IMG/VR virus record: IMGVR_UViG_3300023179_000542
Coordinates: 1-22,839 of that record
DNA from: a virus
Strand: one strand, 5' to 3'
DNA: 22,839 nt
The position numbers and the translations under genes were made by a program. Shown here one piece after another: positions 1 to 8,209 of this stretch. Numbering within the stretch: the stretch's first letter is position 1; every line of letters starts with the position of its first letter. Under the pieces are notes generated by a model. It searched no databases and was not told where the DNA came from. It saw only the letters and a list, made by a program, of their open reading frames with translations.

Positions 1-96
1 AATATCAAAGATGGCTTTTGTCTTGCAAAAGCAGGTTCCGGAACACAAGAGGTTAACCAAGGACGAAATGTCTCAATTCCTAGATTTTTGATTTAA
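1..96 (+). CDS. 3' end of an unidentified gene (partial)
   Basis: Frame 1 is open from the first base to a TAA at 94-96 and encodes the last 31 residues of a protein, ending in SIPRFLI. It lies directly upstream of a promoter-like site and runs in the same direction as the next genes. Frame 2 also contains a small ORF over the same bases (ATG at 11, stop at 91, 26 residues, ending QFLDF), and I cannot separate the two on sequence alone. No function can be assigned from this fragment. Frame 1 is preferred because it is open to the edge and has a natural-looking glycine and hydrophobic residue pattern. Confidence 0.35.
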   Translation, partial: NIKDGFCLAKAGSGTQEVNQGRNVSIPRFLI

Positions 97-104
97 TACA
101 TTGG

Positions 105-113
105 TGCTATACT
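105..113 (+). promoter_or_regulatory. extended -10 promoter candidate
   Basis: TGCTATACT fits an extended -10 element (TGn plus a TATAAT-like hexamer at 108-113). The -35 region is weak (T-rich, about 85-93). The hexamer ends only 6 nt before the ATG at 120, so the usual initiation distance would place the transcript start at or beside that start codon. No Shine-Dalgarno sequence lies before this ATG, which agrees with a leaderless transcript. This is inferred from pattern only. Confidence 0.4.
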
Positions 114-119
114 AGCCCA

Positions 120-260
120 ATGAAGCAAGGACTCTACGCCAACATCAACCGCCGGAAGAAACTTGGGATTAGCAGGCCAAAGAGCGAATCCACCATTAAG
201 CCTAGGGTGTGGAAGCTTATGAAGGCTAAGAAGGGCGGGTTTGAAGATTCAAAAGCCTGA
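120..260 (+). CDS. GLYANI-type basic phage mini-protein
   Basis: This is a 46-residue, very basic protein starting MKQGLYANINRRKKLG. The order GLYANI, then RRKK, then SRPKSEST is the pattern of a small uncharacterised protein that I recognise from many environmental and marine phage genomes, where it is also 40-60 residues long. It has no membrane segment and no cysteine. The lysine and arginine content suggests nucleic-acid or virion binding, but no function is known. The ATG at 120 has no ribosome site and sits right behind a -10-like element. The end overlaps the possible TTG start of the next ORF by 20 nt. Confidence 0.75.
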   Translation: MKQGLYANINRRKKLGISRPKSESTIKPRVWKLMKAKKGGFEDSKA

Positions 261-489
261 CCTTGCCTGGGCGTACATCGAGTTGCTCTTAACTGAGAAC
301 AGCCGGTTGCATAAGACTATTGGACTAGTCGACAGGTTCTTTGGGGATATAATGGCAAACTGCTCTAGAGAGGTTTACGAGGCGAACATGGCAAACCTTA
401 CCGAAGACCTTGAGGGATTGGCACAATTTCTTGCAATTCACCAGGAGCGTATTAAAGCTCTAAGCACCCATCTGAAAGGAAACGAATGA
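241..489 (+). CDS. small helical hypothetical protein
   Basis: The ORF encodes up to 82 residues and is predicted largely helical, with an acidic central part (EVYEANMANLTEDLEGL) and a basic end. The start is uncertain: TTG at 241 overlaps the previous gene, and the first in-frame ATG is at 352 (MANCSREV). Its stop codon overlaps the next ATG (486-489, ATGA), which supports translational coupling and hence a real gene. I recognise no family. It belongs to a run of small + strand genes before the minus-strand cluster. Confidence 0.55.
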   Translation: MKIQKPDLAWAYIELLLTENSRLHKTIGLVDRFFGDIMANCSREVYEANMANLTEDLEGLAQFLAIHQERIKALSTHLKGNE

Positions 490-716
490 GCGAATTACCA
501 TGCAACAGCCCCAGGCGTACACCTGGAGCAAGAAAGAAATTTGTAGTCCGTGCCTGTCAAAACGGCGAATCCAAGACGATTCGCTATGGCGATCCCAAGA
601 TGACCATCAAGAAGAGCAACCCAGACCGGCGCAGAAGCTTTAGGGCTAGGCATCAGTGCGATTCTAAGCCGCCCAGCAAGCTGTCGGCTAGGTATTGGTC
701 TTGTAAGAACTGGTAA
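486..716 (+). CDS. small conserved phage protein with RARH motif
   Basis: A 76-residue basic protein. The N-terminus (CNSPRRTPGARKKFVV) and the block GDPKMTIKKSNPDRRRSFRARHQCD followed by ARYWSCKNW (about residues 35-76) match a short uncharacterised family seen in many phages, where SFRARH and a terminal YW.CK/NKW block are the signature. Three cysteines (6, 24, 59 region) plus C73 could bind metal, but spacing is not that of a classic zinc finger. The ATG overlaps the previous stop (ATGA) and is preceded by AAAGGAAA, a usable ribosome site. The function is unknown; a DNA-binding or virion role is only a guess. Confidence 0.7.
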   Translation: MSELPCNSPRRTPGARKKFVVRACQNGESKTIRYGDPKMTIKKSNPDRRRSFRARHQCDSKPPSKLSARYWSCKNW

Positions 717-720
717 AACA

Positions 721-903
721 ATGCGCCAGGATACCGTTAAATCGGGCCAGGATAGGCCTAGAAAGAGTCTTAGTGGCGCGGCAGATAGGAGACAGCGGGC
801 AAAGCAAGAAAAGCCTTATAGCGTCAAATTTAAGGTTGAACCTATGCCACTGCCTGACCTACCGTTAGGCAACCGAGCTTGCTGTTGCAGGATAGGTCGC
901 TAG
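721..903 (+). CDS. doubtful small basic ORF
   Basis: A 60-residue ORF follows the previous stop by 4 nt. The product is basic (RQDTVKSGQDRPRKS) and ends CCCRIGR. No ribosome site precedes the ATG and I recognise no family. The DNA contains short repeated words (CAGGATAGG near 748 and 889, ACCGTT near 731 and 861) that continue into non-coding sequence, so the region could equally be repeat-bearing intergenic DNA. It is listed because it otherwise leaves a 250-nt gap in a dense gene run. Confidence 0.3.
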   Translation: MRQDTVKSGQDRPRKSLSGAADRRQRAKQEKPYSVKFKVEPMPLPDLPLGNRACCCRIGR

Positions 904-916
904 AGTACCGTTTTTA

Positions 917-936
917 CATAGCCCTTATAGGCTATG
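917..936. terminator. hairpin between convergent genes
   Basis: CATAGCC and GGCTATG form a perfect 7-bp stem around a 6-nt loop. A T5 run lies before it (911-915) and TCTTT after it (938-942). It sits between the + strand run ending at 903 and the minus-strand gene ending at 965, where a shared terminator would be expected. The flanking T and A tracts are short, so efficiency is uncertain. Confidence 0.45.
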
Positions 937-964
937 CGTCTTTACCGCCTCCTTATAGAGCCTC

Positions 965-1153
965 CTAACGCTCCCGTTTAATAGCTGGCCTACCGTTTTC
1001 AAGCCTCCACTTATCCCAACGCTCCCGCTGACGCTGCGCTACCGTTTGGTAGTGTTCCTTGCCCATCTTGCGAGCCTTGGTAGGACCGGTGACGCTCCCG
1101 CCTTTCTTGCCTAGCCTGGATAGGTATGCTTTTATAATTTGGTCTTCGGTCAT
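965..1153 (-). CDS. small basic protein with KKGGS motif
   Basis: A 62-residue basic protein. Residues 10-30 (about SRLGKKGGSVTGPTKARKMG) resemble the KGG/GKKGGS motif found in many small phage and plasmid proteins of unknown role, and the remainder (QRQRERWDKWRLENGRP) is rich in arginine and tryptophan. A nucleic-acid-binding role is plausible from charge alone. It is the last gene of the minus-strand cluster. The region before its ATG is A-rich (AAGAAACCAATCAAAAT), a weak version of the leader seen at the other minus-strand genes. Its coding DNA contains several copies of a short GCTnCCG word. Confidence 0.6.
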   Translation of the reverse strand: MTEDQIIKAYLSRLGKKGGSVTGPTKARKMGKEHYQTVAQRQRERWDKWRLENGRPAIKRER

Positions 1154-1245
1154 ATTTTGATTGGTTTCTTATAAATGCCTACGCTTCCGTTTGTAAAGGC
1201 AAAATGCCTGGACTGCCATTTATGGTGCAAGTGGATGAATAGGTA

Positions 1246-1273
1246 AACCGGCAAGGGGTGGAACCTTGCGGTT
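1246..1273 (-). terminator. hairpin after the 166-residue gene
   Basis: AACCGGCAAGG pairs with CCTTGCGGTT to give a 10-bp stem with one bulged G and a 7-nt loop. Read on the minus strand it lies 12 nt beyond the stop of the gene at 1285 and is followed by TTTACC, a very short T run. It may be a weak terminator or an RNA-stabilising hairpin between the last two genes of the cluster. Confidence 0.35.
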
Positions 1274-1284
1274 ATTTAGACTAT

Positions 1285-1785
1285 TTAAGATAACAATTCT
1301 GAGGCATGGCCGCAAAAGTATTTACCCTTAGCGCACCCAATTAAATCGGAAATAGAATGAAAATTCATATAACGATAGTTTTTCCGCATCCATTCAATTC
1401 TTTCCTTAGTCGTAAATGATTCCCAAACTTCTGCGGCCTGCTCATCCTCAAGGGTGGAATAATCCTCTTCATCAAGCACCGGATAAGAATCAATTTTTTC
1501 GCTTATTTCAATTCCTATTTTGTTGGAATCAGATCCCTCCAGCACGCTTATGGATTCCCACCATCCACAAGCCCAATGCCCGAAACGATCAATTCTTACG
1601 CTATCGGATTCACCGCCTAGCATTTTAAGGGCTGTTCTCCAGTTGCTTTCGGTAAGGCAATCTGAATCCCTATTCCTGGTCATAACGCATAGCCATTTGT
1701 CCTCGGGGACCTCGCCCATGTAGTTAGACAAGGAATCAAAGCCGCTTGGATTTTTAACTATTTTGCTTAATTTCGGTAGGTTCAT
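1285..1785 (-). CDS. conserved phage/plasmid protein of unknown function
   Basis: A 166-residue acidic protein. Three blocks fit an uncharacterised family found in phages and plasmids: RNRDSDCLTESNWR (about 38-51), RFGHWACGWWESISV (about 67-81) and SYPVLDEEDYSTLEDEQ (about 97-113), with a final CGH near the C-terminus. No catalytic motif is clear to me. The start ATG has a good ribosome site on the minus strand (AAAGAAAGGGA), the same leader type as the genes upstream. It is the longest gene of the minus-strand cluster. The family link is from memory of the motif order and should be confirmed by a profile search. Confidence 0.7.
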   Translation of the reverse strand: MNLPKLSKIVKNPSGFDSLSNYMGEVPEDKWLCVMTRNRDSDCLTESNWRTALKMLGGESDSVRIDRFGHWACGWWESISVLEGSDSNKIGIEISEKIDSYPVLDEEDYSTLEDEQAAEVWESFTTKERIEWMRKNYRYMNFHSISDLIGCAKGKYFCGHASELLS

Positions 1786-1883
1786 GTTTTGCGTCCCTTT
1801 CTTTTAGTTTCACGCACGCCGTCACCGGTTGCGCTGCCGTTTGTTAGGACTGTCCAGGCTATCGCCCAGGAATCAATCCATTG

Positions 1884-1908
1884 CATCCCCCCTTGCTAGG
1901 AGGGGATG
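1884..1908 (-). terminator. GC-rich hairpin behind the minus-strand micro-genes
   Basis: CATCCCC and GGGGATG form a perfect 7-bp stem, which two more C-G pairs can extend with a bulged A. It begins 12 nt after the stop of the 27-residue gene on the minus strand. No T run follows it on that strand, so it may protect the RNA end or act as a pause site rather than a classic intrinsic terminator. Confidence 0.45.
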
Positions 1909-1919
1909 ACATGGAGTGA

Positions 1920-2003
1920 CTATTTCCTAAGCATAAAGGCCACCCAAGAAGCTAAGATGGCTCCAAGGATCAGCCCATGGGCGAAGTAGACGGCGTTGGT
2001 CAT
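1920..2003 (-). CDS. 27-residue single-span membrane microprotein
   Basis: On the minus strand an ATG at 2003 opens a 27-codon ORF ending TAG at 1922-1920. The product is MTNAVYFAHGLILGAILASW followed by VAFMLRK: one hydrophobic segment (about residues 5-24) and a positive end, the layout of a small inner-membrane protein. The stop of the upstream gene lies one base before its ATG, and AAGAAAGGAAAAA inside the end of that gene supplies a ribosome site. The tight fit and clear transmembrane pattern make it likely real although very short. Possible roles include a holin-like or superinfection-type membrane protein, with no direct evidence for either. Confidence 0.6.
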   Translation of the reverse strand: MTNAVYFAHGLILGAILASWVAFMLRK

Positions 2004-2004
2004 A

Positions 2005-2133
2005 TTACCATTTTTCCTTTCTTATTGTGTAGTTTGTAGGTCCCATAAACCTCCGCCAAAGTTCAGCACGCTCTAGCGTAGTGAATCGCTGGACGAAGGA
2101 GCCGGAGCGAGTGTAGATGGCGAAGCAGATCAT
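2005..2133 (-). CDS. 42-residue hypothetical protein
   Basis: The product starts MICFAIYTRSGSFVQRFTTL and continues ERAELWRRFMGPTNYTIRKEKW. The start at 2133 is chosen because its ATG overlaps the stop of the upstream gene (ATGA at 2133-2130), which is preceded by GGAGAAGCGG. A longer ORF to 2235 exists but would lie deep inside the upstream gene. The pattern resembles the short phage proteins that turn an instruction-like beta strand into a helix, but I recognise no family. It is the middle gene of a three-gene coupled run. Confidence 0.55.
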   Translation of the reverse strand: MICFAIYTRSGSFVQRFTTLERAELWRRFMGPTNYTIRKEKW

Positions 2134-2354
2134 TTCCGCTTCTCCATAATTCCTTCGGCCAGCTTCCGATACTCTCCGCTTCCGTGCCAAGGCACTAGCT
2201 CGACAACATAGGATGTTGAGCCAGTTTCCTTGCAATTGTTAAGACTCACCCGAACCGCTCCATCCCAACTTGCGGCGTGAGTGGTTAATTCCCGATGACC
2301 GCATCGTGTGGCCATTCCTTTTGCTCCTTTTAGTGTTCCATATAGTGCGCTCAT
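2130..2354 (-). CDS. MSALYGTLKG-type phage/plasmid protein
   Basis: A 74-residue protein whose start MSALYGTLKGAKGMATRCGH and later THAASWDGAVRVSL and VELVPWHGSG blocks match a small conserved family, of unknown function, that I recognise from phages and plasmids. The start at 2354 is preferred over an upstream in-frame ATG because AAAGAAAGGAAA lies correctly before it and the family begins with this sequence. It is the first gene of the minus-strand cluster, behind the repeat-bearing divergent gap. Confidence 0.65.
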   Translation of the reverse strand: MSALYGTLKGAKGMATRCGHRELTTHAASWDGAVRVSLNNCKETGSTSYVVELVPWHGSGEYRKLAEGIMEKRK

Positions 2355-2375
2355 TGTGTGTGTTTCCTTTCTTTT

Positions 2376-2409
2376 GGTTTGCCTTGGCTTGCCTAGCGGT
2401 TTGCCTTGG
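2376..2409. repeat. 12-bp direct repeats, 22-bp period
   Basis: GGTTTGCCTTGG occurs exactly at 2376-2387 and again at 2398-2409, a start-to-start distance of 22 bp, close to two DNA turns. The linker CTTGCCTAGC repeats part of the same word. The pair lies in the gap between the divergent terS and minus-strand genes, just downstream of a minus-strand promoter candidate, as would suit a repressor or activator operator. Confidence 0.55.
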
Positions 2410-2417
2410 TAAGTGAT

Positions 2418-2445
2418 AGAGTATTGCAAGCGGAACGCATGGCAA
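2418..2445 (-). promoter_or_regulatory. minus-strand promoter candidate
   Basis: Read on the minus strand, TTGCCA (2445-2440), a 16-nt spacer and TACTCT (2423-2418) resemble a sigma-70 promoter with a weak -10. It would transcribe through the 12-bp direct repeats into the gene starting at 2354. The match is moderate. Confidence 0.35.
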
Positions 2446-2485
2446 GCACTTTCTTTTGATTATTTTGATGATATAAGTGGTGCTT

Positions 2486-3145
2486 ATGGATGAACCAAGC
2501 GGATCTCCAACCGCAAAAACCGGACGACCTAGCGCATATTCTGATAAGGTTGCTGACGAAATTGTGGCGGCTTGTCGTAGCGGATTTACAATGGAGAAGG
2601 CTGCCGAACTTGTGGGCCTTGAGCCTAAGACTGTTCAGAATTGGGTAGGAAAGCGCAGAGAGTTCGGGGAGCGTATAAAAAAGGCCAGGCGTGAGCATGA
2701 ACTATCCTTATTGAGAGATATTGAACTTGCAGGTGCAAAGTCCTGGCAGGCAAAGGCTTGGATGGCGGAAAGGGTGTACAATTATTCTCAGCCGAGCGCG
2801 CGATTGCAGGTGGCCGGTGAAGTTCAGCATGGAATTAGCGGGAATTTAGTTGCCATGCTTGCGGGTATAGCCTCAAGAAAAAAAACAGAGACCACCGAAA
2901 AACGACAAATCAAGAATGCAACGATATCAGTTGATGCACAAGAACTTCCAAAACAAATTGAAAATCAAAAGTCTAACAATAATTATTGTATCAACTTTGA
3001 TAACAATGCTAATAATAAACAACTTGCAGAACACAATTTGCCAAAACAACGCCATAAGCAAATGAGACGAAGAAAACCCAGGTCTGAATCATTGGCCAAG
3101 TACCCCACCACCACGCCCCCTGCCACGCCCCCAGCCACGGTTTAG
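2486..3145 (+). CDS. terminase small subunit
   Basis: A 219-residue protein. Residues 12-100 have the layout of a phage small terminase: GRPSAYSDKVADEIV, a helix-turn-helix (about 34-57, AAELVGLEPKTVQNWV), then a helix with HELSLLRDIE and SWQAKAWMAERVYNY. It would bind the packaging site and load the large subunit. Its gene lies before terL with one HNH gene between. ATG at 2486 is chosen over GTG codons at 2477 and 2480. No strong ribosome site is seen, and a TATAAG-like hexamer ends 8 nt before the ATG. From about residue 130 the protein becomes basic and Asn/Gln-rich and its DNA AT-rich, and it ends in a Thr/Pro/Ala stretch. That tail looks like an added or fast-changing segment. Confidence 0.8.
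   Translation: MDEPSGSPTAKTGRPSAYSDKVADEIVAACRSGFTMEKAAELVGLEPKTVQNWVGKRREFGERIKKARREHELSLLRDIELAGAKSWQAKAWMAERVYNYSQPSARLQVAGEVQHGISGNLVAMLAGIASRKKTETTEKRQIKNATISVDAQELPKQIENQKSNNNYCINFDNNANNKQLAEHNLPKQRHKQMRRRKPRSESLAKYPTTTPPATPPATV
3111..3132 (+). repeat. left copies of CCACGCCCCC repeat
   Basis: CCACGCCCCC occurs twice in tandem at the end of terS (3111-3120 and 3123-3132). The longer word TGCCACGCCCCC (3121-3132) recurs exactly at the start of terL (3559-3570), so the two copies bracket the HNH gene. Confidence 0.7.
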
Positions 3146-3215
3146 AATCGCATAACCCCCCTAAACAATTCTGGCACAAAACAAAAAGAGGTGTAAATTA
3201 CGCAACATAAAAACA

Positions 3216-3554
3216 GTGCAAAATAAGTCACATTGGCAGAAATATGGCAAAAGACACAAGAGCAAAATAAGCAGAGATATTCGTGCTTATATCATTGATA
3301 TCAAATCAAAAACCCCATGCAAGGACTGCGGAAAGATATTTCATCCAGTAGCAATGGATTTTGATCACATACATGGATACAAAAAATTTCAAATAGGATC
3401 ATCAAATTTGAGCAGTTGGAAAGCGATTCTTAATGAAATTTCTAAATGTGAAATAGTTTGCTCAAATTGCCATAGGGTTAGAACATTTGTAAGAAAACTT
3501 AGCAAACAAGAAAAGCATGAAAGTAATGATGCACAGCTTTATTTGAGCATATAA
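3216..3554 (+). CDS. HNH endonuclease
   Basis: A 112-residue basic protein with the zinc-bound HNH fold: Cys35-x2-Cys38, then AMDFDHIHG (Asp50-His51 and His53), then CEIVCSNCHRVRT (Cys82-x2-Cys85-His86). It is a DNA-cutting enzyme. Small HNH proteins beside terminase genes can assist packaging, while others are homing enzymes, and the sequence cannot settle which applies. The only usable start is GTG at 3216, as an in-frame stop lies just upstream and the first ATG comes after the zinc knuckle. The gene is clearly more AT-rich than terL and is bracketed by copies of TGCCACGCCCCC, both signs of insertion. The ribosome site is poor. Confidence 0.85.
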   Translation: MQNKSHWQKYGKRHKSKISRDIRAYIIDIKSKTPCKDCGKIFHPVAMDFDHIHGYKKFQIGSSNLSSWKAILNEISKCEIVCSNCHRVRTFVRKLSKQEKHESNDAQLYLSI

Positions 3555-3557
3555 AAT

Positions 3558-4982
3558 ATGCCACGCCCCCCCAAGAAGAGCGCAGAAGAAATTCTTTCAG
3601 ACCTATCTAGGCCAACTCCATTTGCCCGTGATGTTCTTGGAATAAACTTATATGATTGGCAAAAGAAGGTTCTTGCAGATTTGGAACAAAGAGATTGTCG
3701 AGTCGCTCTGCGTGCAGCTAATGGTTCCGGCAAGACCAGCACAGTAATTTCAGCCATCCTGCTATGGCACGCACTCGTTTTTCAACGCTCAATAGCCGTA
3801 ACAACCGCCGGTGTTTTCCGCCAAGTCGAATCCCAGCTTTGGCCTAGCATGAGATCCCAAATCGCCAAGCTTGGTGGCCCCTGGGAGGTCACCAGTGGCG
3901 AGATCCGCTACCTGCACCCTAACGGCAACACATCGCGCATTATAGGCTATTCTGCGACCGATCCTGGGCGTGCTGAAGGATGGCACGCAGAAGACCACGA
4001 ACACCATCCATTGCTCATGGTTGTGGACGAAGCCAAGACCGTAGCTGACCCATTGTTCGAGGCCATCAGTCGGTGTCAACCGACGCGACTGCTAATCGCC
4101 TCATCACCGGGAGGTAGCAGTGGAGCGTTCTACCGGGCTTTCACCAAAGAGGCCAATATGTGGTCCAAGCACGCTGTTACTGCCTTTGATTGCCCCCATA
4201 TTACTCAGGCACAGATAGACGAGGTCATCCAGCGGTACGGCGAGAAGCACCCGTTGACCAGGTCAATGATCTATGGCGAGTTTGTTGACATAGGCAACGA
4301 GAGTCTGGTTATTAGCCTAACCCAGCTTCAGAACTGCTTTAACAGCCCACCTCAGTTCAAGCCAGGGATTAGGGTAGCCGGGGTAGATTTTGCCGCCGGT
4401 GGCGATGCCAACGTACTATGTATTAGGGATGGCAATAAGGTGCTACCCATGATCGCATGGCGCGAAAGGGATACGATGGCGGCTGTAGGTAGGTTTATTG
4501 TTGAGTTTAAGAAGGCTGGGCTAGAAGCCAGTAACATTTACGCTGACGCCAGCGGTTTGGGCATGGTTATGTGCGATGCCCTGGCTGAATCTGGTTGGCC
4601 GGTCAACCGGGTTAACTTTGGGTCAACCGCCTATGACAACGATGCGTATACCAACAGATCGGCTGAGATGTGGTATGGCATGGCCAAGAAGATCGAGGAT
4701 GCCGAGATCATTTTACCGGATGATGACGAACTGACGGCGCAACTAACCTGTCGGCGCAGCATGACCAACTCCAAGGGTAAGCTTGGCGTGGAATCCAAGG
4801 ACTCGATGCGATCCAGGGGTCTGGCAAGCCCAGACAGAGCCGATGCCCTTGCCCTGTGCCTGGATGGTGGTAACATGAGATGGGATTTGACTTTTCCCGT
4901 TGAGAAGCCAACGTGGAAGTCGCTTCTATCCATGATTGAGTCGCACGACCCGGTTATGGCTGGATTTGACCCAGGAGGTTAA
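3558..4982 (+). CDS. terL: terminase large subunit
   Basis: A 474-residue packaging motor that pumps DNA into the procapsid and cuts concatemers. The ATPase half shows Walker A AANGSGKTS (Gly58-Lys59-Thr60) and Walker B PLLMVVDEAK (Asp157, Glu158), followed by a likely coupling motif at IASSPGG. The RNase H-like nuclease half shows GVDFAAGGDANV (Asp277), YADASGLG (Asp330) and SPDRADAL (Asp426/Asp429). Length and motif order fit a full enzyme. The ATG at 3558 is 3 nt after the HNH stop and overlaps a TGCCACGCCCCC repeat. No Shine-Dalgarno sequence precedes it, so translation may depend on coupling. Confidence 0.96.
   Translation: MPRPPKKSAEEILSDLSRPTPFARDVLGINLYDWQKKVLADLEQRDCRVALRAANGSGKTSTVISAILLWHALVFQRSIAVTTAGVFRQVESQLWPSMRSQIAKLGGPWEVTSGEIRYLHPNGNTSRIIGYSATDPGRAEGWHAEDHEHHPLLMVVDEAKTVADPLFEAISRCQPTRLLIASSPGGSSGAFYRAFTKEANMWSKHAVTAFDCPHITQAQIDEVIQRYGEKHPLTRSMIYGEFVDIGNESLVISLTQLQNCFNSPPQFKPGIRVAGVDFAAGGDANVLCIRDGNKVLPMIAWRERDTMAAVGRFIVEFKKAGLEASNIYADASGLGMVMCDALAESGWPVNRVNFGSTAYDNDAYTNRSAEMWYGMAKKIEDAEIILPDDDELTAQLTCRRSMTNSKGKLGVESKDSMRSRGLASPDRADALALCLDGGNMRWDLTFPVEKPTWKSLLSMIESHDPVMAGFDPGG
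3559..3570 (+). repeat. right copy of TGCCACGCCCCC repeat
   Basis: An exact copy of the 12-bp word at 3121-3132 lies in the first codons of terL. The two copies are 438 bp apart and bracket the HNH gene. The reading frame of the word differs between terS and terL. Confidence 0.7.
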
Positions 4983-4986
4983 CATT

Positions 4987-5157
4987 ATGAACGCATGGAA
5001 CTGGATTACTGCTAATTGGACTAGCATCGTTGCCGCTGTTGGTGGCATCGTTCTGTCCGCCCGCATCATTGTAAAACTGACCCCGACCCCGGCTGATGAT
5101 TCAATCCTTGAAAAGATTGTCAACTTCCTCAAGTCGATTGGTCTGAAGATTGACTAA
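4987..5157 (+). CDS. small holin-like membrane protein
   Basis: A 56-residue protein. Residues 10-31 (about TSIVAAVGGIVLSARIIVKL) form one membrane span, followed by the signature LTPTPADDSILEK and a helical tail. A single span followed by a TPTPxDD motif is typical of a small phage membrane protein, often annotated as holin-like, that I recognise from many podoviruses. It would sit in the inner membrane. ATG at 4987 is chosen because a perfect AGGAGG (4973-4978) lies 8 nt before it. A longer reading frame from 4936 overlaps terL and lacks such a site. The neighbouring spanin-like genes support a lysis cassette. Holin activity itself is inferred. Confidence 0.7.
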   Translation: MNAWNWITANWTSIVAAVGGIVLSARIIVKLTPTPADDSILEKIVNFLKSIGLKID

Positions 5158-5163
5158 TCTTTC

Positions 5164-5358
5164 GTGATCGGTGCGATACTTAACATCATCGCATCGGTTC
5201 TTCGCCTCATCCCCGGTTGGCGGGAAAAGCGTATTGACAAAATTGAGGGTGAGTGGCGCGACAATAACTCTGCCATTGATGCTGACCTTGGCCCTAAGCC
5301 TTGGTGGTTGCGCCAGTACAACGAGTCCGTTGACCAAGACAAGCGGAGCGGTAACTGA
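5164..5358 (+). CDS. small membrane protein, candidate inner spanin
   Basis: A 64-residue protein with a hydrophobic N-terminus (residues 2-18, IGAILNIIASVLRLIPG), then a charged helical part (WREKRIDKIEGEWRDNN) and an end rich in Trp and Asp (PKPWWLRQYNES). It starts with GTG 6 nt after the previous stop and has no strong ribosome site. Its 3' half overlaps, in another frame, the start of the lipoprotein gene at 5234. This layout resembles Rz/Rz1 pairs, where an inner-membrane spanin overlaps its lipoprotein partner. It is shorter than most inner spanins and its span contains an arginine, so a different small membrane role is possible. Confidence 0.6.
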   Translation: MIGAILNIIASVLRLIPGWREKRIDKIEGEWRDNNSAIDADLGPKPWWLRQYNESVDQDKRSGN

Positions 5359-5485
5359 TTTAATGTATGATGAAAATTATGTTCAAATTCGCAACAGCAG
5401 TCCTGAGGTCAAAGCCTGGGCAAGAAAAGCTTTGCATTACGTCAACGATCTGTCATACGAACTGAATAGGGAGCGAGAGAAATAA
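5234..5485 (+). CDS. lipoprotein, candidate outer spanin
   Basis: The product carries a lipoprotein signal: a hydrophobic run LPLMLTLALSLGGC with the lipobox cysteine followed by ASTTSPLT. Residues after the cysteine (about 57) end in a conserved-looking helix with SPEVKAWARKALHYVNDL. It would be lipidated and held in the outer membrane. The start is uncertain: TTG at 5234 gives a positive n-region (MTKLRVSGA), while GTG at 5249 and ATG at 5279 are alternatives, and the frame is open further back to 5171. It overlaps the previous gene by up to 125 nt in another frame and its stop overlaps the portal start (TAATG). The lipobox is seen directly; the spanin role is inferred from position and overlap. 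Confidence 0.65.
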   Translation: MTKLRVSGATITLPLMLTLALSLGGCASTTSPLTKTSGAVTDLMYDENYVQIRNSSPEVKAWARKALHYVNDLSYELNREREK

Positions 5486-7362
5486 TGGCTGACAACAATC
5501 CACGCGCAACGTATTATCAAAGAATCCTAGAGGCGTTAAACCAGCGGGAAAGCTGGGAGAATCGCCAGAGGTTGTTTTATCAGGCTCGTTACTTTGGTGT
5601 GCGCCGTAAGATCAAGCCTTGGCCTACTGCCGCCGATTTGCACGTTCAGTTGATTGATACTGCCATTGAGAAGCTGAAGCCTAGCTTCGTAAACAGCGCA
5701 ATCGGCAACGACATCCTTTCCAGCTTTGTCCCGATGCGCCAGCAGTTGACCCCGATCACGGTGTCAGCCGAGCGTTGGTTTGACTACAACATGCGCGAGA
5801 AGACCAATTTCCAGAAGGAGATTGTGTCGGTCATCGACAACATTCTTTTGTTTGGCCGTGGCGTTGCCAAGGTAATTTGGGATGAGGACAAGAGGCAGAT
5901 TCGCTTTGACGCGATTGATCCTTTCCATATCATCGTTCCTTCCTACACCAAGGAGTTCAAAGATGCGGATTTCATCGTACACATCATCTCGACTAGCATC
6001 GACTCCTATAAGGCAAATCCCGCTTACAAGCAGAACGAGGAACTCATCAAGATCATTTCTGGTAAACCCTCCAAATCGGTGGGCTTACGAAGTGAAATTC
6101 AGGATGAGATTTATCGGCGCGAGGGAATTACTCAGGAAGGCGAGAATGATCGCATCATTCTTTGGGAAATGTATACGCCGACCAAGGACGGCTGGAAGGT
6201 AGAAACCTATAGCCCCCTCCAGATCCAGACCGACATCCGCAAGACTTTTATTCTGCCGTACAACCACGGCGAACCTCCCTTCGTTGACTTCCCATACGAG
6301 GTCACCGGGGGCGGTTGGTATAGCCCAAGAGGAGTGGCCGAAATCCTACTCCCAGGCGAGAACCTGCTGAATAAACTCAAGAACAGCCTCTCGGACTATG
6401 TGGAGCTTGCCAACCGACCCGTTTTTGAAGCACAGAACCCGATCTCGCTCAACACGGCGAATCTGAAGATGCAACCCGGCCAGATCCTTCCGCAGGGTCT
6501 AAAGCCGGTTCAGTTCAGCCAACCTCCGTTTGATTTTCAGCGTTTGATGCTGGAAGAGCGGATGCTGGCAGAACAACGCATGGGTAACTTCGATATGAGC
6601 GCGGCTGGTCAGTATTCTGGGGCGGACCGCAAGACTGCCACCGAGGTGCAGGCTATCCAAGGTCAGGCTGCTGCTTCTGGAGACTTACGCAATCGGATCT
6701 TCCGCATGAGCTTGGCGCATTTGTTCAAGCAGTGCTGGTCGCTTTACACGCAGTACAACAAGAAAGACTTGATGTATCGATACGCCGAGGAAACCGGGCA
6801 GATGGTGCCGGAAGGTATCCATGCCGAGTACTCCATCGAACCCAAGGGCGGGTTGGATTTTATCAATCGCCAGTTCGCACTTCAAAAGTCCGTGGCCCGG
6901 ATGCAGATGTTCCAAAACAATCCTTTCGTCAACCAAGGCGAATTGGTCAAGTCGGTGCTGGAGCAGGACGATCCTTCATTGGTTCGCCGGTTGTTCCAAG
7001 ACCCGCAGGCCGCTTCTGGCGACCAAGCCGAGGATCAGGCCACCGAAATTGCCACCATGCTTGCCACCGGATTTCCTGTGGCCATCAAACCTTCAGACGA
7101 TCACAAGGCTCACATCTCTGTGCTATTTGCCTTTAACCAAGCGGCTCAAGCCCGCCAACAGCCTGTAGACCAGGCAGCCATGCAAGTACTCATGGCGCAC
7201 CTCCAACAGCATTTGGCTGCCCTGGAGAAGATCGACCCAAACACATCCCGCGCGATCCAGAAACAGCTTCGTGATGCGGCTAAAGCCCAGATTCAGCAAG
7301 CCCCTCAGGGCATTGGTGAAAACATGGGACCGACCAGCCCCGCACTTGCGACTGCTGCTTGA
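5485..7362 (+). CDS. portal (head-tail connector) protein
   Basis: A 625-residue protein that forms the twelve-subunit ring at one capsid vertex, through which DNA enters and leaves. Evidence is its size, position between terminase and scaffold/capsid, and portal-like segments: an early LKPSFVNSAIGND helix, IDPFHIIVPSY and VIWDED in the wing, GGGWYSPRGVAEILLPGENLLN (about residues 272-293) leading into the stem region, and EVQAIQGQAAASGDLRNRIF before a helical crown. The C-terminal 80 residues are rich in Gln and Ala and probably form the barrel or crown. The ATG overlaps the lipoprotein stop by one base, with GGGAG and GAGAGA upstream as ribosome site. Confidence 0.9.
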   Translation: MADNNPRATYYQRILEALNQRESWENRQRLFYQARYFGVRRKIKPWPTAADLHVQLIDTAIEKLKPSFVNSAIGNDILSSFVPMRQQLTPITVSAERWFDYNMREKTNFQKEIVSVIDNILLFGRGVAKVIWDEDKRQIRFDAIDPFHIIVPSYTKEFKDADFIVHIISTSIDSYKANPAYKQNEELIKIISGKPSKSVGLRSEIQDEIYRREGITQEGENDRIILWEMYTPTKDGWKVETYSPLQIQTDIRKTFILPYNHGEPPFVDFPYEVTGGGWYSPRGVAEILLPGENLLNKLKNSLSDYVELANRPVFEAQNPISLNTANLKMQPGQILPQGLKPVQFSQPPFDFQRLMLEERMLAEQRMGNFDMSAAGQYSGADRKTATEVQAIQGQAAASGDLRNRIFRMSLAHLFKQCWSLYTQYNKKDLMYRYAEETGQMVPEGIHAEYSIEPKGGLDFINRQFALQKSVARMQMFQNNPFVNQGELVKSVLEQDDPSLVRRLFQDPQAASGDQAEDQATEIATMLATGFPVAIKPSDDHKAHISVLFAFNQAAQARQQPVDQAAMQVLMAHLQQHLAALEKIDPNTSRAIQKQLRDAAKAQIQQAPQGIGENMGPTSPALATAA

Positions 7363-7373
7363 AGGTACCGGTA

Positions 7374-7889
7374 ATGCGGGATGCCTTCCAACAGGAAGGC
7401 TTAAAACATCTTTGCGAGTGGGCTAATAAAGAAGGTGCGGTTGGCAAGGCGGTTGAAATTGGCTCCTACAGCGGTGAGGGTACGATTGTCATCGCCAAAT
7501 ACTTCAAGGAAGTGCTTGCCGTAGATCCATGGATAAACGGCTACGACATCAATGACCGGGCGAGCCAGCAATGCCCGATGAAATTTGTTTTTGAGAAATT
7601 TCAAGAAAATACCAAGGGTCTTGGTAACGTAATGTTTAGTCGCGGGAAAAGTCTTGACGCGCTGGAGTTCGTCAAAGATGGTGAGTTGGATTTTATTTAT
7701 GTTGACGGCGATCATAGGTACGAAGCGGTCTTGGCTGACATCAAGGGTTGGATGCCAAAACTTCGTAACGGAGCGGTGCTTGCTGGACACGATTGGAGTT
7801 TCAAAGATGTACAAAAGGCTATACACGAGACGCTTACAGGTAAGGAAGCCGTACTTTTCCAAGGTGATTCATGGGCGGTAAAGCTATGA
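7374..7889 (+). CDS. class I SAM-dependent methyltransferase
   Basis: A 171-residue protein with a compact Rossmann methyltransferase core: motif I VEIGSYSGEGT (27-37), acidic end of strand 2 AVDPW (Asp51), and LDFIYVDGDHRYEAV (about 105-119) followed by GAVLAGHDW (133-141). This arrangement is that of the Methyltransf_24 family, whose members modify small molecules or sugars; the DGDH and GHDW pairs often bind a metal. The target here is unknown, and it is placed between portal and scaffold, an unusual site. ATG at 7374 is chosen because GAAGG (7361-7365) precedes it. A TTG at 7359 overlapping the portal stop is the alternative. Confidence 0.85.
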   Translation: MRDAFQQEGLKHLCEWANKEGAVGKAVEIGSYSGEGTIVIAKYFKEVLAVDPWINGYDINDRASQQCPMKFVFEKFQENTKGLGNVMFSRGKSLDALEFVKDGELDFIYVDGDHRYEAVLADIKGWMPKLRNGAVLAGHDWSFKDVQKAIHETLTGKEAVLFQGDSWAVKL

Positions 7890-8209
7890 GAAAATTAAAA
7901 GCAGCACTGGCGTTTATTCGGGACCAGGAATGGGTTGAGGAACCTAAGTGGCTTGAGGAAGACGAGAAGGCGTTGACCGCATTCCTTGGCACGCCAACTG
8001 GGAAACGCCTAAGTCTCATCTTGCTCAATCTTACTTTGCGTCAAAATGCGTCTGCGGTGATGAAGAAACCAGAGGGACTTGCGGACGCTTGTGGTTATGC
8101 TAAAGGGTTTAGAGGTTGCGTGGCGACTCTTGAGTCGCTTGCAACCACAAAATTAAACTCCGCCATTGCTGGCTACGGTGATGGAGAGGATGAACCAGTA
8201 GCAAACTAA
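7886..8209 (+). CDS. small conserved pre-scaffold protein
   Basis: A 107-residue protein, or 112 if started at ATG 7871. It is helical, with EDEKALTAFLGTPTGKRL (about 25-42) and a C-terminal GYAKGFRGCVATLESLA segment. Proteins of this size and pattern are common just before the scaffold gene in N4-gp56-capsid podoviruses, where their job is unknown. The ATG at 7886 overlaps the methyltransferase stop (ATGA); the 7871 ATG has the better Shine-Dalgarno sequence (AAGGTGA), so either may be used. I cannot name a function. Confidence 0.7.
   Translation: MRKLKAALAFIRDQEWVEEPKWLEEDEKALTAFLGTPTGKRLSLILLNLTLRQNASAVMKKPEGLADACGYAKGFRGCVATLESLATTKLNSAIAGYGDGEDEPVAN

Follow-up and report, generated by a model that had tools for sequence, protein, structure and literature searches.

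The minus-strand gene block and its fixed backbone

The window analysed here, the whole 22,839-base virus record IMGVR_UViG_3300023179_000542, comes from a tailed phage whose plus strand encodes small and large terminase, portal and major head proteins. As the preliminary description had it, five small genes run against this direction: the minus-strand block at 965-2354 comprises five ORFs, located between the terminase and four small plus-strand genes (120-903) (Table 1). The two coupled junctions it claimed are also present, as an ATGA overlap of the g5 stop and g4 start (2130-2133) and as a gap of a single base between the g4 stop at 2005 and the g3 start at 2003. Its statement that no gene of known function is present held as well; g1-g5 matched no family of known function in PHROG, Pfam or PADLOC (g3 was outside the PADLOC search), and neither g5 nor g2 matched a characterised counter-defence family in these collections. 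The AlphaFold model of g5 (pLDDT 85) consists of a helix plus four strands and has no clear PDB match, the best hit in the VIA structure search (Z 6.0) being a common arrangement. For the predicted g2 model (pLDDT 88), BFVD returned only uncharacterised phage proteins, and structure searches of the two proteins gave no informative solved match. Searches against named phages, by blastn with window positions 1-8000 and by tblastn with g1, g2 and g5, were without a match.

Table 1. Features of the minus-strand block and its upstream region (window coordinates)
Feature	Position	Strand	Remarks
g5	2354-2130	-	74 aa; first operon gene; exchangeable cassette; slot directly before g4
g4	2133-2005	-	42 aa; fixed backbone gene; ATGA-coupled to preceding cassette
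g3	2003-1920	-	27 aa; fixed backbone gene; coupled to g4; hydrophobic, membrane-like by eye
g2	1785-1285	-	166 aa; exchangeable cassette; family of uncharacterised phage proteins
g1	1153-965	-	62 aa; basic, pI 10.8; fixed, last operon gene
Putative sigma70-type promoter	2418-2445	-	-35 TTGCCA (2445-2440), 16 nt, -10 TACTCT (2423-2418)
5' UTR hairpin of T1 module	2382-2409	-	fold -8.3 kcal/mol, z -0.99 in window
A/G-rich leader AAAAGAAAGGAAA, then ACA repeats	2355-2375	-	before g5; 13/13 match
Leader copy before g3	2013-2025	-	12/13 match; inside end of g4
Leader copy before g2	1793-1805	-	11/13 match

Relatives were collected as viral contigs through the terminase (80), g5 (22), g2 (24, at 43-71% identity) and g1 (80), giving 184 oriented loci, or 127 after removal of 57 near-identical ones. 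Among these 127, g4 occurs in 99, g3 in 102 and g1 in 100, and g4 and g3 are kept together in 98 of the 99 loci with g4. Conservation of the ORFs in related phages, which had been set beforehand as a refutation test, was found: the order g4, g3, g1 on the minus strand is preserved in 96/96 loci having all three. Pooled pN/pS values for the four ORFs covered (g1, 0.36; g3, 0.35; g4, 0.45; g5, 0.19) show that these genes are conserved under purifying selection. A near-complete relative carries genes for a RusA-like resolvase, an exonuclease, a DNA methyltransferase and a primase/helicase to the left of the block, which therefore lies between replication and packaging. By sequence comparison, some 100 related phage contigs share the cluster as a conserved putative operon. 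Its three tiny backbone genes, g4-g3-g1, are fixed, always lying on the minus strand with predicted replication-side genes on one side and the terminase on the other, and its other genes are exchanged.

Several further features were observed in and around the block. The plus-strand gene at 486-716, of unknown function, encodes 76 amino acids with 74-96% identity in about 50 loci, placing its product among the best-conserved proteins near the cluster. A possible HNH endonuclease gene (3216-3554; Pfam E 0.016, below the cut-off) is located between the small and large terminase genes, and a G+C-rich inverted repeat (CCCCTCC/GGAGGGG-like) noted by eye between g3 and g2 (1885-1909), lacking a T-run, is a possible attenuator. 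Three near-complete relatives (L082/L083, L084/L085 and L090/L091) have an exact 123-base terminal overlap, which probably marks circular assembly. The plus-strand gene at 120 looks leaderless (window 108-122), with a TATACT that ends 6 nt upstream of the ATG; this spacing recurs in 24/24 examined loci with an ATG at the aligned start of that gene.

Exchanged cassettes beside the backbone

The slot directly upstream of g4 holds 18 unrelated gene families across 99 loci, and the cassette stop overlaps the g4 start as ATGA in 64/99 loci and 13/18 families, counts that depend on our own ORF picking. Across 271 pairs of loci whose occupants differ and whose g4 genes agree to 70% or more, identity was 0.26-0.33 over the 120 nt upstream of the g4 ATG versus 0.79-0.86 over the 120 nt downstream, and directly at the ATG it was 0.33 before and 0.85 after. 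This alignment comparison shows a sharp cut exactly at the g4 start codon and, around the backbone, slots refilled with unrelated small genes. The window's g5 family fills the g4 slot in 10 loci; other occupants or near neighbours include GP88 (PF17338, 2e-30), DUF7227 (3e-84) and ArdC, the last separated from g4 by an ORF of 50-51 aa.

The gene 0.3 region of phage T7 is an early anti-restriction locus, and two families of the relatives bear on the possibility of such content here. The ArdC cassette (c13) matches an anti-restriction PHROG at 5e-75, and one of its members, L006, matches PF08401 (ArdcN, 2.7e-33) and PF18818 (zincin-like metallopeptidase, 4.2e-37), both over the cut-offs. The Ocr-like cassette (c20) matches PHROG 2568 in 4/4 members (best E 1.3e-5 over 49/128 residues) and encodes a strongly acidic small protein (pI 4.1-4.4, median charge -19), a combination of sequence and acidity expected of an Ocr-type DNA mimic; a PDB sequence search with it to E 10 gave no match. 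Both ArdC and the Ocr-like protein occupy the region of the relatives' operon that matches the place of g5 in the window. The earlier suggestion of host-takeover or exclusion functions thereby gains support in the part that concerns anti-defence content, by way of these relatives' proteins. With the same position, conserved flanks, variable content and known counter-defence genes, the locus has the features of a phage accessory or anti-defence hotspot as judged from gene content, and g2 and g5 themselves may have an anti-defence function. In an unrelated phage (L119), g2, the Ocr-like protein (57%) and three more of these accessory families lie within 6.5 kb.

Other contents were noted in individual contigs. 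Those found through g2 (L115-L120) are phage contigs of 38-70 kb in which several of the same accessory families lie near g2, and the stretch fetched was without the other core genes of this phage group. A sliding-clamp-like protein (L067:2274-2822) and an amidoligase-like protein (L018:3972-4826) are each encoded on the minus strand at the operon place in a single relative.

Two start modules at the 5' end of the operon

The promoter of the window scored 8.6 against a shuffle median of 6.0 and a 95% point of 9.7, which is not significant alone; it is placed as are the TTGAC-N17-TA promoters of relatives and is absent from the list of a stricter scan. Across loci, a minus-strand promoter above the mononucleotide-shuffle 95% point was found in 59/105, compared with 4/105 on the divergent terminase side, and it is this sigma70-type sequence in relatives that suggests early expression of the operon. 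The operon 5' end was readable in 104 loci, of which 36, including the window, have a module with a Shine-Dalgarno-type start (T1), 65 a predicted leaderless one (T2) and 3 another arrangement; classes were assigned by pattern, plus by hand for 5 T1 and 9 T2b loci, with L018, L107 and L111 set aside. Two of the latter, L107 and L111, have a similar start with a variant pseudoknot.

The T1 module is laid out as promoter, hairpin and A/G leader with ACA repeats, the repeats numbering 2.3 per 16 nt versus 0.3 at other starts. Its hairpin gave fold z values of -3.67, -2.93 and -2.49 in three relatives, and covariation was weak or marginal (0.106 versus 0.088 shuffled, with 13/500 shuffles as high and a slid version at 0.112), in an alignment whose window-type rows are misaligned, which counts against the hairpin. 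Because the window has T1, with its own z of -0.99 and this marginal covariation, it offers weak evidence of its own that the 5' end is structured; no pseudoknot is present at its operon start.

The preliminary description ascribed related purine-rich leaders to four genes. Within 35 nt before the start, the best match to AAAAGAAAGGAAA was 13/13 for g5, 12 for g3, 11 for g2, 9 for g1 and 7 for g4, compared with at most 10 among the 31 scored plus-strand starts of the window, a maximum reached in 3 genes. Copies of the leader precede g5, g3 and g2. With only one base between the g4 stop (2005) and the g3 start (2003), the g3 leader falls inside the end of g4. Neither g1 nor g4 really carries the leader: relatives of g1 have a TAAGGAG-type site in its place, and g4 probably relies for its start on coupling. 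The core A[AC]GAAAGGA[AC] was scanned for in loci with g4 (265 kb inside the cluster, 515 kb outside). Within the cluster, the minus strand has 108 copies, 106 of them with an ATG within 15 nt, and the plus strand has 2; a further 5 lie elsewhere. The leader is therefore specific to the minus strand and to the cluster, and it is more than a repeated ribosome site, being part of one of two interchangeable operon start modules.

In the T2 module, the distance from the end of the -10 box to the ATG is 6, 7 or 8 nt in 56, 7 and 2 of the 65 loci, respectively, and the message should therefore be leaderless; by this spacing, all 65 look like leaderless transcription units. ACA repeats follow the AUG at a mean of 3.3 per 21 nt, versus 0.4 at other gene starts. 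Beyond them, 55/65 loci have an in-frame coding stretch capable of forming an H-type pseudoknot (at least 5/7 pairs in stem 2), and nine others have a plain hairpin and belong to one protein family. The pseudoknot geometry comprises a 4-pair stem 1, two bases that are mostly AA, a 7-pair stem 2 and a third loop of six bases, with A5, G15 and G22 invariant, and the element mostly begins 18, 21, 24 or 27 nt downstream of the ATG. A fixed-geometry scan (at least 6/7 pairs) found it at the operon start in 53/104 loci, compared with 1.8 expected given its frequency in the remainder of these sequences. In the alignment (54/57 rows, after dropping L071 and L074 as T1 chance matches and L003 as out of register), covariation over the 54 copies was 0.579 versus 0.211 shuffled, with 0/500 shuffles as high and slid versions at 0.145 or below, and 10/11 pairs change on both sides. 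The pseudoknot was first spotted by eye in the same data. In a sister clade (terminase ~75% identical), whose 14 loci were obtained independently of any pattern search and with duplicates excluded, the strict form occurred in 7/14 versus 0.75 expected; of the other seven loci, five retain stem 1 but have a shorter second stem, stem 1 is broken in L278, and L276 lacks a start of this kind. Two interleaved stems with compensatory changes are the hallmarks of an H-type RNA pseudoknot, which T2 relatives are accordingly predicted to form.

The pseudoknot stretch is common to 22-23 unrelated protein bodies, with identity dropping from 0.64 to 0.29 directly past it where bodies differ, and three body families occur both with the pseudoknot and, behind a T1 start, without it. 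On a terminase tree of 65/101 classed loci (limited to loci in which 900 bases or more of the gene are present), T1/T2 labels change 18 times, compared with a shuffled mean of 18.5; the start module is therefore exchanged independently of terminase ancestry. Comparison of operon 5' ends thus shows an exchanged module, either T1, of Shine-Dalgarno type, or T2, leaderless with the AUG predicted at +1. Exact-pattern scans of 2.9 million viral contigs retrieved one T2 form in 16 contigs and one T1 form in 21, and 34/34 new loci carry the terminase genes of this group, to which both modules, by these scans, appear to be confined. Rfam gave no match at gathering in 8 sources, and for L079 at E up to 2 the only match was a below-threshold one to another family. 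The accessible parts of the literature on pseudoknots in leaderless, phage or start-codon contexts, and of that on metagenomic structured RNAs, contained nothing recognised as the T2 element. Frameshifting was set aside as its role because the protein bodies stay in the frame of the AUG. A second pseudoknot tag was observed in L192 (minus strand, position 4685 of the oriented locus), in a downstream gene with its own AGGAG site, as if this were a displaced former first gene.

A probable accessory operon with an exchangeable start

We regard it as probable that the block is an accessory operon with a fixed backbone, refilled slots and an independently exchanged start module, transcribed early and carrying counter-defence cassettes. 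Under this model, host sigma70 RNA polymerase would read the operon early, the ACA-rich start module would ensure strong translation of any newly acquired ORF, ribosomes finishing the cassette would go on, by ATGA coupling, to translate g4 and g3, and counter-defence or host-modifying proteins would predominate among the cassettes. More tentatively, and with the odds somewhat against it, the combination of 5'-terminal AUG, ACA repeats and in-frame H-type pseudoknot may be a portable start device that can be spliced onto any captured ORF to make it the first, strongly translated gene. The T1 hairpin and A/G leader would be its Shine-Dalgarno counterpart, so that counter-defence gene and start module could be exchanged independently. 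For the pseudoknot, the likeliest role is a cis effect on translation, in which it faces the mRNA entry side of a ribosome at the 5'-terminal AUG; a part in start selection or pacing is favoured because it begins 18-27 nt after the AUG, roughly at the point where an initiating ribosome takes in the message. CA or ACA repeats have been reported to enhance translation (PMC9031893; PMC3879156), and stable structure around the start codon to lower initiation (PMC9031893); the latter counts against the model.

The main rival to start selection or pacing is that the pseudoknot, perhaps along with the T1 hairpin, serves as an operator through which an RNA-binding protein of phage or host represses or times the operon. 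The fixed geometry, the invariant A5, G15 and G22, the strong covariation and the occurrence of one site per operon in nearly all loci would suit such a site, as would the precedent of gp32 acting on its own mRNA through the T4 gene 32 pseudoknot (PMC3014915). However, the stem sequences vary freely, such that the protein would need to read shape and loops, the element follows a leaderless AUG rather than preceding a Shine-Dalgarno site, and no candidate binder was found; we consider this role unlikely, albeit less so than the further alternatives. A purely protective role, in which the 5' structures shield that end of the message against RNases, would account for a structure near the predicted 5' end in both modules, yet it explains neither why the pseudoknot keeps to the frame at 18, 21, 24 or 27 nt past the AUG nor the ACA repeats, and we judge it improbable. 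Somewhat lower still we rate a toxin-antitoxin or superinfection-exclusion unit made up of the tiny membrane-like g3 with g4 and g1: g3 is 27-31 aa long and hydrophobic with a basic end, and it is coupled to g4 in the window and almost always found with it, but the genes tested had no PADLOC or Pfam match (g3 outside PADLOC) and the exchangeable neighbours are unlike a closed toxin-antitoxin pair.

Two further readings are already disfavoured. The shared leader might be an ordinary Shine-Dalgarno site, with its likeness among minus-strand genes due to chance, insofar as AAAGGA forms part of the Shine-Dalgarno sequence; this is very improbable given that the genome has different sites at its plus-strand genes, that the core numbers 108 on the coding strand in the cluster against 7 on the other strand or elsewhere, and that unrelated cassettes are 0.70 identical in -20..0 and only 0.38-0.52 identical inside the genes. 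Lysogeny control regions typically hold divergent or counter-oriented small genes, and a cluster of this orientation could be one, transcribed against the lytic genes. We give this reading the least credence of all, as Phage_integrase was found in 0/20 related records (which may be fragments) against 14/14 for the positive control, the scanned families included no repressor-like protein, and the bacterial genome collection contained no relative. By the integrase search the group looks lytic. Its nearest named phages by terminase are Akkermansia phages (36-38%), from which we infer a host among the Verrucomicrobiota; this assignment is unproven because a scan of bacterial genomes with the terminase found no relative of the group. 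Akkermansia phage Chambord has no minus-strand gene near its terminase, and a literature search on ArdC in freshwater Verrucomicrobiota phages found no paper.

The accessory anti-defence setting is of a known kind. Anti-defence islands and plasmid leading regions, as far as described in the part of PMC11541004 available, likewise consist of interchangeable small counter-defence genes expected early, and ArdC and Ocr-like members occur in the window's relatives too; here, in contrast, there is a fixed three-gene micro-backbone, a slot defined by ATGA and an exchangeable RNA start module. The gene 32 mRNA pseudoknot of T4, T2 and RB69 is also H-type and near the start of a phage message, and was perhaps the only viral example in translational autoregulation as of 2010 (PMC3014915, in part), whereas the element of the T2 module is inside the coding region, past a leaderless AUG, and fused to 22-23 unrelated proteins. 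The STAXI motif is likewise a pseudoknot RNA near anti-restriction and DNA-handling genes, but with 2-3 tandem repeats and often UUCG loops (PMC2864571, in part); the T2 pseudoknot is single-copy (two in one locus, non-tandem) and in frame, with an A-rich third loop, and for lack of tandem repeats and of an Rfam match it was not taken to be a STAXI RNA. Leaderless mRNAs with downstream CA repeats resemble the T2 start in having CA/ACA repeats after an AUG that lies at the predicted 5' end (PMC9031893, in part), but the T2 unit continues into a conserved pseudoknot and is portable from one gene to another. As far as the literature search reaches in the partial sources available, a fixed micro-backbone with exchangeable RNA start modules is new.

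How ribosomes choose leaderless messages has been called not understood (PMC9031893, in part), and pseudoknot start elements that are natural, varied and placed on different proteins offer a way to ask this question. The mapped slot, in turn, makes any gene between the start module and g4 a counter-defence candidate that can be searched for by position.
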